Shown one piece after another: positions 22,865-27,046 of a DNA stretch of 38,360 nt. Below the pieces are notes generated by a model. The model saw nothing but the letters and a program-made list of their open reading frames with translations, was not told where the DNA came from and did not search any database. The stretch is from Caldifarciminota bacterium (GTDB lineage Bacteria; Hydrothermota; Tepidihabitantia; SM23-42; JAOAFX01), in assembly GCA_026416055.1 (NCBI GenBank), contig JAOAFX010000010.1, positions 1 to 38,360 on the forward strand, written 5' to 3'. Made by a program: the position numbers and the translations under genes. Within the stretch, counting starts at the first letter, position 1; each line of letters starts with the position of its first letter.

Positions 22865-22966
22865 GTTTTACTCACAGGCAAAAGCCCGTGAATACCTCAG
22901 CCACTTCTTCACACGGAAAGTTCTTCTCTCGAAGGAAGAGAAAGTTAAGATAATGCTGACCATTTG

Positions 22967-23512
22967 TCTGACTCCTCTCCACTTTCTATGAATTGTAAAA
23001 TCAAGAATATCATTATTACATACCTGCATCCCTGCCCGTAAACCAATTATCATTCTATTCCAGTGGTCAAGCCTGCTTAACAAATATTCCAACTGAATAA
23101 TACTACAAAAAAATAAAAAACGTAGGGCAAACCTTCAGGTTTGCATTAAAACGCAGGGCTAAAGCCCTGCCCTACGAAAATATTAAAAAGGTAGCCGCAG
23201 GGTAAACCAGCAGGTATTCATTACCGAGTAAGCTCGGTCACTACAATTGACAAATTTTGCCGATTGAACTCTTGAAGTTTGTTTGCGGGGTAAATCCTGC
23301 ACTACAACTAAAACGGGATTTGCTTAAAAATGAATCATCCGCTGGGTGATGACGGCCTGCGTGCTGGAAATCCATTTTGTCAATGGATGAAACGGGCGAT
23401 TATCGGTTTGGAAGTTGCTCTGATAAATTGGATGTGATATTATCGCGATTGGGAATTCGCTCCTTCAGGAAAACAAAAAACCATTAAACTAAAAAAGTGG
23501 AGAGGACTCAGA
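22967..23512. mobile_element. MITE-like element, 546 bp, with terminal inverted repeats and target duplication
   Basis: The ends are 19-bp inverted repeats matching at 18 positions: TCTGACTCCTCTCCACTTT (22967-22985) and, reversed, TCTGAGTCCTCTCCACTTT (23512-23494). Directly outside both ends is the same 7-mer in direct orientation, CCATTTG (22960-22966 and 23513-23519), as expected of a target site duplication. No transposase is encoded inside. The interior carries repeat copy B (23121-23176), a hairpin ACCGAG-TAAG-CTCGGT (23223-23238) and another, ATCCATT/AATGGAT (23370-23388). It accounts for most of the non-coding stretch 22827-23560. Caveat: both ends can also be read as K-W-R-G-(V/L)-R, so two inverted gene fragments are an alternative, though that would not explain the direct 7-mers. 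Confidence 0.65.
23121..23176. repeat. Double-hairpin intergenic repeat (copy B)
   Basis: The copy begins CGTAGGGCA and ends TGCCCTACG, a 9-bp inverted terminus, and contains two perfect palindromic hairpins: GCAAACCT-TC-AGGTTTGC (23127-23144) and GCAGGGCT-AA-AGCCCTGC (23153-23170). It is the cleanest member of the family also seen at 2958-3100 and 34111-34175, and lies within the MITE-like element. Confidence 0.88.
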
Positions 23513-23523
23513 CCATTTGAATC

Positions 23524-23551
23524 TTGACTTTTTTAAAAATTTGTGGATAAT
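23524..23551 (+). promoter_or_regulatory. Promoter of the HD-glyQS-aspS-recO operon
   Basis: TTGACT (23524-23529), 16-bp spacer, GATAAT (23546-23551). It begins five bases after the right-hand target duplication of the MITE-like element. The ATG at 23561 is 9 nt after the -10 box, so the mRNA would be almost leaderless. Confidence 0.8.
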
Positions 23552-23560
23552 ATTTTACTT

Positions 23561-24106
23561 ATGAACCGGAATGATGCACTCAACCTTGTCTCAGAAAAGT
23601 TGAAAAACAAAAATCTTTTCAAACATTGTCTCGCCACCGAAGCATGCCTGCGTGAACTTGCCCGACATTTTGGTGAGGATGAAGAAAAATGGGGTCTTGC
23701 TGGATTACTACATGACATTGACTACGAGGAAACCATCAATGACCCGTCACGCCATGGTATAATAGGTGGTGACATCCTCGAGAAAAAAGGATTGGCACCA
23801 GAGATTGTATATGCAGTCAAAGTTCATGCCGGGCACTTTGCTCCGCAATCGCGCCTTGACTGGGCACTTTTTGCCACCGACCCACTCACCGGTTTGATAG
23901 TTGCATCTGCACTCATGCATCCAGACAAGAAATTGAACTCTCTTGATAAGGATTTTGTCCTGAGAAGATTCAAAGAAAAAAGATTTGCTGCAGGTGCAAA
24001 TCGTGATCAGATTCTTACATGCAAAAATCTCGGTTTAGAACTTGAAGAATTCGTTGAAATATGTCTCAGAGGGATGAAATCCATAAGTGAAGAACTCGGG
24101 CTATGA
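23561..24106 (+). CDS. HD-domain (HDIG) phosphohydrolase
   Basis: A 181-residue cytoplasmic HD-superfamily protein. Metal ligands are visible: H in [10 protein letters not shown] in [11 protein letters not shown], then HGIIGGDIL and VKVHAGHF, ending with the final D ([11 protein letters not shown]). The family hydrolyses phosphate esters such as nucleotides; the substrate here is unknown. I chose the ATG at 23561 because the upstream GTG at 23543 would lie before the predicted start of transcription. It leads the operon and overlaps glyQ by 4 bases (ATGA). HD proteins beside tRNA synthetase genes are common in this kind of genome, but a functional link is not shown. Confidence 0.88.
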
Positions 24107-24978
24107 GCAAAAAAATATTCACCTTTGAAAACCTGATTTTAAAATTAAAAAACTACTGGCAAGAAAAAGGCTGTTTGATCTTTGAGCCTTATAATTCCGA
24201 AGTTGGTGCCGGGACATTCAATCCTGCAACATTTTTACGAATTCTGGGGAAAAAACCATGGAATGTTGCTTATGTTGAACCATGCAGGAGACCACGGGAT
24301 GGCAGATATGGTGAAAATCCCAATCGTGTCCAGCAGTACTATCAATTTCAGGTGATCATGAAACCAGCCCCTTCTGATATCCAGCAGATTTACCTTGAAT
24401 CCCTCGAATCGATAGGATTTAAACTCAGTGAACACGAAATCAGGTTTGTTGAAGATGACTGGGAAAGTCCTACACTCGGCGCCTGGGGTATAGGATGGGA
24501 AGTCTGGCTCGATGGTCTGGAAATAACCCAGTTCACATATTTCCAGCAAGCTGGGGGGATTGATTTAGATGTCATACCTGTTGAGATCACTTACGGTCTG
24601 GAAAGAATCTGTATGAATATCCAGGGAGTCTCATCAATATTTGAAATAAAATGGAATGAAGAGACTACCTGGGGGGATATTTATCTCCAGAATGAAAAAG
24701 AGTTTTCAAGATATAACTTTGAAGAGTCTGACCCGAAACGGCTCATACTTTTATTCAATGAATTTGAAAGTGAAGCAAAGAATCTTTTAAAAAAAGAACT
24801 CGTCTATCCTGCGTATGATTACACGATCAAATGCTCACATATCTTCAATCTCATTGAGGCAAGGGGTGCAATAAGTGTTTCTGAACGCGCAAAGATGATC
24901 GCCCGGGTTCGCTCACTCGCTTCTGAAGCAGCAAGGCTGTATCTTGAAAAGATCGATGGTGGAGAAAGAAATGGTTGA
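24103..24978 (+). CDS. glyQ: Glycine-tRNA ligase, alpha subunit
   Basis: A 291-residue class II synthetase catalytic subunit of the bacterial alpha2beta2 GlyRS. Diagnostic segments are [50 protein letters not shown] (motif 2 region), [25 protein letters not shown] and the terminal YGLERICM (motif 3). It activates glycine and charges tRNA-Gly together with GlyS. It overlaps the HD gene by 4 and glyS by 8 bases. The length matches the family norm. Confidence 0.98.
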
Positions 24979-27046
24979 TTTCCTTCTGGAGATTGGTTTT
25001 GAGGAATTTCCCACAGGTTATATTAATAAAGCAGCAAGTGAACTCCTAGAGAAGGTAGAAGACCTTTTCAAACGGGAGAGGATATTTTATAGAACGATGC
25101 GCAAGATTTATACCAGCCGGAGGATAGGTGTCCTGGTTCTTGGTGTAGCAAAAAAACAGAAACCCCAGCCGATAGTTATCCAGGGACCACCCAAAAAATT
25201 CGCTTATGACGAGAATGGTAAACCAACCCAAACACTGGAAGGATTTTTGAACGCCCATGGTTTAAAGTTGAGTGATATAAAAATTGTAAAGACCGAAAAA
25301 GGTGAATATGTCATTGCGACAAAAGAAATGCCTGCGAAAGATACCGAAGATATTCTTTATTATGAAATCCCCAAGATAATCGCAAGTCTGGAATTTCCCA
25401 AAACAATGGTCTGGAATGGCAACAAAGTCCGTTTTCCCAGACCGATAAGGTGGATTGTTGGCTTGCTCGATAGAAAACCACTCCGTTTTAAATATGCAGG
25501 TCTGGAAGCAGAAAGATACACAATGCCCAATTTTCATTTTTCCTTTAAACCGATTCGTATGGAGAAACCACGCGAATATATGAATTTTTTAAGGCATGGT
25601 GGCGTCATCGCTGATCCTAACGAAAGAAGGAAAATTATAAAGAATCGAATCCATGAAAAAGCAAGAATCTTAAAAGGTGAGCCAGTCTATGACGAAAATA
25701 TGATTGAAGAAATAAACTGCACTGTGGAATACCCTGATGTCACATATGGTGAATTTGACCAGGAATTCTTGAAGTTACCCGAAGAAATCCTGCAATCAAC
25801 GCTCAGGGCACTGGGTAATCTCATCTGGATAAAAGGAACGAATAATTTTATCTGTATCTTCAACGGCAGAAAAAAAGCTGCCCAAAATGTTGGGCTTGGT
25901 TATGCCCGGGTTTTAAAATCAAGGCTCCAAGATGCGCTTTTCTATTACCAGAATGATTTAAAGCAGGGAATTGAAAAAATGCTTGAAGGAACAAAAGAAA
26001 TGGTATGGCTGGAAGGACTGGGGACTGTCTATGATAAATCAATCCGTCTTGTAAAATCGATAGAATACTTTGAATCAATACCTGATCTCGATATAAAATC
26101 GTTAAAAAGGGCAGCCGAATTGTGCAAAGCCGATTTATGCTCAAGTATGGTGCGGGAAAAAGAATTCACTGCACTCCAGGGCGTCATGGGTTATTATTAT
26201 GCAAGGGCGAGCGGTGAAAAAGAAAAGGTTGCAATTATCATAAAAGAACACTATCTACCCGCCTTCAGTGGGGATAGAATTCCCATCACAAAAGAAGGTG
26301 CTGTTCTGGCACTCATTGACCGGGTCGATAATATCCTCGGTGCATTACTCTCCGGGCAGCGACCTTCTGGTTCTTATGACCCATTGGGTGTAAGAAGGAA
26401 TGCTTATGGTATTTTTAATATCGTTGACCAGCATAAACTCGATATTGAATTGCTACCCATCTTCTGGGAACATCTCAAATTATTTAAAAAAGATATCGAT
26501 AAAAAAATGGTCCAGGAATTTCTTATTGAAAGAGCAGAAAGGTATCTTGAAGAACTTGGCTATCGTTATGATGAAGTCGATGCAACAATCTACAATACAA
26601 ATTTAAATCTTTATGATACCCGTCTTCGCTGTGAAGCATTGAAGGACTTCCGTGATAAAGAGGATTTTACAAAACTCGTCATCGGTCAGAAAAGGGTCCG
26701 CAATATCCTGAAGAATATAAAAGAAATTGGTGAAGTAAATCCTGAATTATTTGAAAAATCCGAAGAGAAAAATCTTTATGAACGTGGGCAGGAAGTAGAA
26801 AAGAAGATGACTCCCCTTTTTGCTGAAAAGAAGTATACCGAGATTTTGATACTTCTGCTCGGACTCAGAAAAGATATTGACCGATTTTTCGATGAGGTGC
26901 TCGTAATGTGTGAAGATAAAAATCTACAAAAAAACCGGCTTGCCCTTGTCAATTATATAAATCAACTATTCCTGAAGTTTGCAGATTTATCAAAGATTGT
27001 AATTGAAGGCGAAAAAGGGAAAGAAGATTCAAAACCAAAAACTTAA
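24971..27046 (+). CDS. glyS: Glycine-tRNA ligase, beta subunit
   Basis: A 691-residue subunit, normal for the family, that binds tRNA-Gly. The opening [20 protein letters not shown] and the blocks [20 protein letters not shown]-like ([11 protein letters not shown]), [20 protein letters not shown] and [11 protein letters not shown]-like ([14 protein letters not shown]) followed by [10 protein letters not shown] are diagnostic; the C-terminus is a DALR-type anticodon-binding helical domain. I chose the ATG at 24971 over the upstream TTG at 24944 because the protein start then fits the family and GGAGAAAG lies just upstream. It overlaps glyQ by 8 bases and is followed after 12 bases by aspS. Confidence 0.97.

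Follow-up and report, generated by a model that had tools for sequence, protein, structure and literature searches.

What is the insertion that lies immediately upstream of the glyQS operon in this stretch of DNA, what moves it, and is its closeness to a promoter incidental? The window (the whole stretch analysed, 38,360 nucleotides) corresponds to contig C11 in the 2.1-Mb draft genome (G000) of an uncultured WOR-3 bacterium. The analyses presented here strongly suggest that the insertion belongs to a mobile family, IS10-like and within the IS4 family, whose members enter the chromosome at a fixed distance upstream of host promoters.

The first-pass annotation had described a MITE-like insertion of 546 bp, with 19-bp inverted termini (TIRs) agreeing at 18 of 19 positions and with CCATTTG directly on both sides as a 7-bp duplication. 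The insertion is real, the inverted termini are present (22967–22985 and 23494–23512) and CCATTTG does stand at either side; the boundary, however, is off by one base. Among the copies of the family the first base of the 19-mer may be A, C, G or T, and is part of the target and not of the element. With the ends placed at CTGA, identity between the two flanks shows a sharp peak of 0.62 at 9 bp (four of them perfect), compared with 0.26–0.43 at lengths of 5–8 and 10–12 bp. Considering the variable first base and the peak at 9 bp, the window copy has CTGA...TCAG termini at 22968 and 23511, is 544 bp long and is flanked by ACCATTTGT and ACCATTTGA (Table 1); on the same two grounds the 7-bp duplication was dropped. 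Membership of the ISPepr1 subgroup, which has repeats of 7–8 bp (PMC2266710), was given up once the 9-bp target duplication (TSD) had emerged. Perfect 9-bp repeats surround MITEs and insertion sequence (IS) copies in this and other genomes (ACAATTCAG, GTAAGTTGT, GGCGGGTCC, CACGGAACC and others); that of the window is imperfect, at 8/9, and that of the IS copy on contig C20 (see below) agrees at 5/9.

Table 1. Features of the insertion and of the operon downstream of it (window coordinates)
Feature	Position	Strand	Remarks
Left copy of 9-bp target duplication	22959..22967	.	ACCATTTGT
MITE, 544 bp	22968..23511	+	Ends CTGACTCC...GGACTCAG
Left TIR	22968..22985	+	CTGACTCCTCTCCACTTT; left-end module of the family extends to ~23017
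Double-hairpin repeat	23103..23176 (approx.)	.	Also dispersed independently
Conserved right-end module of the family	23436..23511	+	Terminates in the right TIR
Right TIR	23494..23511	-	CTGAGTCCTCTCCACTTT, read on the - strand
Right copy of 9-bp target duplication	23512..23520	.	ACCATTTGA, 8/9 to left copy
-35 box TTGACT of the targeted host promoter	23524..23529	+	Starts at base 13 outside the element
-10 box GATAAT	23546..23551	+	16-bp spacer; kept in element-free congeners G001 and G002
HD-domain-like gene (assigned by inspection), first in the targeted operon	23561..24106	+	
glyQ	24103..24978		Downstream of the HD-domain-like gene
glyS	24944..27046		Downstream of glyQ

A search of the genome with the 19-bp end, which the annotation had proposed, gave 41 matches with no more than three mismatches and none for a reversed-pattern control, so that chance does not account for them. 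BLAST of the genome with the whole element returned 73 pieces, and profile searches with both ends pointed to roughly 35–40 relatives, these own-genome counts being dependent on BLAST and pattern searches. Paired copies are about 137–647 bp long and their interiors vary; what is conserved is about 50 bp at the left end and about 90 bp at the right. Across the class, TIR matches occur in 17 of 65 genomes, with up to 66 per genome, against three control matches in all 65. The window copy is thus short, TIR-bounded, TSD-flanked, transposase-free and multicopy, with ends in common with an autonomous element, as is expected of a MITE. The double-hairpin repeat that had been reported inside it is indeed there (CGTAGGGC...GCCCTACG); this repeat also occurs alone, being scattered, independently of the MITE, among several genera of the order.

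The absence of a transposase, correctly noted for this copy, is made good elsewhere in the genome. Contig C20 carries a 1,183-bp element with the termini of the MITE and a single ORF for an intact 365-aa DDE transposase, which matches DDE_Tnp_1 (PF01609) and the IS4 model NF033591 and bears the signature Y-(2)-R-(3)-E-(6)-K (YREK; YGRRMLIEEGFRDLKS) that is part of the definition of the IS4 family (PMC2266710). Its score against NF033591 (146.2 bits) is just below the cut-off of 152, which WOR-3 relatives in G001 and G008 pass with 159.9 and 154.8; NF033591 is also the best-matching model for IS10 from plasmid R100. The matches listed for the C20 protein are IS4-family models, with no Mutator-type model among them. 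In BLASTP it is about 25% identical to IS10R (E 7e-18), and in a tree whose deep forks are weakly supported the WOR-3 proteins stand beside, and outside, the clade formed by IS10 and its proteobacterial relatives. The family's IS copies are 1183, 1256 and 1260 bp long, with CTGA ends and 9-bp TSDs, in keeping with the 5'-CT ends, 9-bp direct repeats and 1200–1350 bp given for the IS10 subgroup (PMC2266710, Table 1), the C20 copy being slightly under that range. A decayed second copy lies on contig C44, and copies of the parent type with the same kind of ends are found in G001, G004, G008 and G027. On its sequence, the parent transposase is a member of the IS4 family distantly related to IS10. 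Since the likeness between the window MITE and the C20 element is limited to the TIR, the case for mobilization of the one by the other rests on the shared ends and the shared target rule. We accordingly assign the window insertion as a non-autonomous MITE passenger of an IS10-like, IS4-family WOR-3 insertion sequence. The earlier proposal that it would be moved by an element elsewhere is well supported by the relatives, the autonomous partner and the empty sites, all of which were found.

The empty sites were sought in relatives, again as the annotation had suggested. The promoter of the HD-domain-like gene and glyQS is kept in two congeners, G001 and G002, both without the element; at this site orthology holds on the promoter side only, the left flank being non-orthologous. 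For the element on C141 (TSD CATTTTTTT), each of the two congeners shows a clean empty site in syntenic position; for that on C124 the two sides map to different contigs in congeners, which makes this site uninformative. The annotation had placed the right end of the insertion four bases from a -35 box, and the box itself (TTGACT, with GATAAT as -10) holds; its nearness is not incidental, and instead reflects a target rule of the whole family.

This rule was found in 60 outward flanks from the window's own genome, where, counted from the element end, TTGACA stands at 13–18 and TATAAT at 35–40, and a -35 box of at least 5/6 starts at position 13 in 28 of the 60. It was then tested on 80 separately sampled ends from G001, G002, G003, G004, G025 and G027, unused in its discovery: TTGAC begins at position 13 in 32 of them, and at all other positions together in six. 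The 140 flanks pooled from the seven WOR-3 genomes include 61 with a -35 box (at least 5/6, at most one mismatch) starting at base 13, that is, after a gap of 12 bp made up of the 9 duplicated bases and three more. Such flanks carry a -10 of at least 4/6 in 61 of 61 cases and of at least 5/6 in 59, with a 16-bp spacer in 54. Since this spacer is also the commonest for promoters elsewhere in the own-genome DNA that was fetched (40 of 63, with a flat reversed-sequence control), the targeted promoters look like ordinary host promoters. That only about half of all flanks have a promoter follows from each element having two ends. Of the 22 elements with a TSD, 20 are flanked by a promoter on one side and not on the other; of the remaining two, one has promoters at both ends and the other, which lies within a tandem array, has none. 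Either end may face the promoter (right 16, left 13), and the rule is common to MITEs, autonomous IS copies, both ends and several host families. Almost all elements that have a good TSD face a sigma70 promoter, so the family amounts to a promoter map of WOR-3.

Further observations concern individual sites. In G001, successive elements occupy one place with the same 9-mer between them (TTCACATTA, ATAACTCAG, AGACATAAA, CTTGACAAC), the pattern expected if a promoter determined where elements insert again and again. Two elements, G000:C163:153-326 and G000:C119:2789-3242, count against the rule: each lies between two promoters, both correctly spaced, and lacks a matching duplication. They are possibly products of recombination between two copies. 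G001 (L321) and G002 (L340) share an element end together with its flank (CTATCTTTA ctgcaat...); this insertion probably predates the split between them, and on its visible side the usual distance leads to no promoter. Some targets (L078, ~1138–1170; L152, upstream of the glyQS operon in G001; L131, in G004) are closely preceded by a motif resembling AGGGTGGATACCATCTCTTGAAATTCTGC; dispersed as it is in different WOR-3 genomes, it is possibly the end of another repeat. Finally, on 24 of 32 promoter sides a reading frame of 60 codons or more opens no further than 60 nt from the -10 box, often only 5–9 nt past it, as in the window (23546–23561) and several other copies; many WOR-3 genes adjoining the elements may therefore have leaderless mRNAs.

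How would the element find such a site? RNA polymerase might not be needed at all if the transposase itself read the -35 box, CTTGAC resembling its own CTGAC end, as a pseudo-end. In line with this, the element ends start CTGAC, C is favoured and T never found at position 12, and TTGAC is almost invariant in promoter-side flanks, the last being partly a consequence of how these flanks were selected. Against it, a -10 box accompanies TTGAC in 36 of 38 element-adjacent cases, compared with 30 of 101 other intergenic and 20 of 281 coding occurrences, although purifying selection against insertions within genes could make part of this enrichment for promoters with a good -10 a matter of survivorship. 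Given the co-occurrence with the -10, TTGAC alone is disfavoured as the target; direct reading of CTTGAC stays a real rival, which we think possible if on the unlikely side.

Selection might do more than remove insertions: elements could insert at random and be kept beside promoters because they or their ends regulate the gene, for example as an insulator or a fixed-distance binding site. In-gene insertions would indeed be lost, the elements carry hairpins, and a protein could bind to a TIR whose distance is constant. It is difficult to reconcile this with a distance that is constant to the single base across different host families, for either end and for full IS copies too, with the single 9-mer common to successive insertions at one site, or with perfect duplications, which mark recent events and have the same geometry; we regard it as improbable. 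Still less credible is that the promoter belongs to the element as an outward promoter past its apparent end. The constant distance from one end is what this would predict, and yet a 9-bp repeat intervenes between element and promoter, the spacer and downstream sequences vary among copies, either end faces the promoter, and the same promoters exist in congeners without the element; the empty sites and the use of either end led us to discard it. Lastly, the alternative raised by the annotation itself, that both ends come from one diverged gene for K-W-R-G-(V/L)-R, can be set aside almost entirely, for, although a 74-codon frame spans the left end, the tens of copies are flanked in many cases by duplications and vary in interior and length, keeping only their common ends.

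Bringing together what was read from the sequences (the family, its ends, the 9-bp duplication, the cognate transposase, the promoter geometry across genomes, the empty sites and the repeated insertion at one place), we hold with considerable confidence that the window insertion is an IS10-like IS4 MITE served by a C20-type transposase, with a 9-bp stagger and fixed-distance promoter targeting. The transposase of a full-length copy, here that on C20, would bind the 18-bp CTGAC...CACTTT ends, excise the element and reinsert it through a 9-bp staggered cut, so that the 9 duplicated and three further bases separate the element, whichever way round it lies, from the -35 box of a sigma70-type promoter; we infer this cut-and-paste chemistry by analogy with the IS4 family. 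We put at about even the chance that it is promoter-bound RNA polymerase (through sigma region 4 and/or the alpha-CTD), and not TTGAC alone, that directs the transposase–end complex. We prefer this guidance in view of the excess of -10 boxes next to elements over other intergenic TTGAC, and since a transposase on its own would hardly detect a hexamer lying some 26 bp past its 9-bp cut site. With the transcription start placed ~7 nt past the -10, the duplicated 9-mer lies at about -46 to -38. In E. coli terms this is the proximal UP-element position, where the alpha C-terminal domain of RNA polymerase would sit. The element likely gains a safe landing site outside genes with the core promoter left intact; for the host, upstream regulatory DNA is repeatedly displaced by mobile DNA while the core promoter stays unbroken. 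That this IS10-like clade independently evolved polymerase-guided insertion at the proximal UP-element position, and that its MITEs spread through WOR-3 promoters in the same way, is a proposal for which we see the chances as evenly poised.

How does this compare with known systems? The WOR-3 elements resemble the IS10 subgroup (ISVsa5, Tn10) in their YREK DDE transposase, CTGA ends, 9-bp duplication, length of ~1.2–1.3 kb and match to NF033591, and differ in the low identity to IS10R and the separate clade described above. IS10 relatives with 9-bp TSDs from Legionella, Vibrio, Azotobacter and others have CTGA-like ends and no fixed TTGACA promoter at the site. In six IS10-like elements from Vibrio, Oceanimonas, Motilimonas and Oceanisphaera (L183, L195, L201, L206, L207, L213) the 9-bp duplication begins with CGCC, CGCT or CACC directly after TAA, a context that resembles integron attC sites; five others (L172, L185, L219, L227, L230) have AAAGG or AAGG on one side, adjoining the 9-bp duplication, which suggests yet another shared target. 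Each clade of the IS10 subgroup may have a target of its own. IS50/Tn5 shares the IS4 family and the YREK region, and its end (CTGACTC...) is similar in its first bases. It provides the only solved relatives found by sequence, marginally so (E 0.04), and its transposase has no significant full-length similarity to that of the WOR-3 elements; we know of no promoter rule for it.

Fixed-distance targeting of promoters has been reported as unusual and, in bacteria, confined to two Mutator-type lineages, which insert 15–17 bp upstream of the -35 of sigmaA promoters, with a contact to the polymerase proposed (Guerillot et al., PMC3942029). In addition, those members of TnGBS/ISLre2/ISKra4 (p-MULT 3 and 4) that have near-symmetric TIRs insert in either orientation (PMC3942029). 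The WOR-3 elements are likewise DDE elements that keep a constant distance from a -35 box downstream of them; since their transposase is of an unrelated superfamily and their distance is 12 bp (9 + 3), they are not members of these lineages. The target duplication also differs, being 8 bp in TnGBS/ISLre2/ISKra4 and 9 bp here. In the open library that we searched no promoter targeting by the IS4 family was found, and such targeting in an IS10-like IS4 clade, with a geometry different from that of the Mutator-type elements, appears to be newly found. If the transcription machinery guides the WOR-3 elements, a contact that we infer, they would also resemble the integrase of the yeast Ty3, an unrelated retroelement, which uses a fixed spot upstream of Pol III genes, an analogy drawn also for the earlier promoter-targeting elements (PMC3942029). 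Promoter targeting in this clade implies that promoters have been taken up as safe landing sites more than once, and this compact transposase family, as kin of the biochemically tractable IS10 and Tn5, may offer a system for asking how a transposase finds RNA polymerase.
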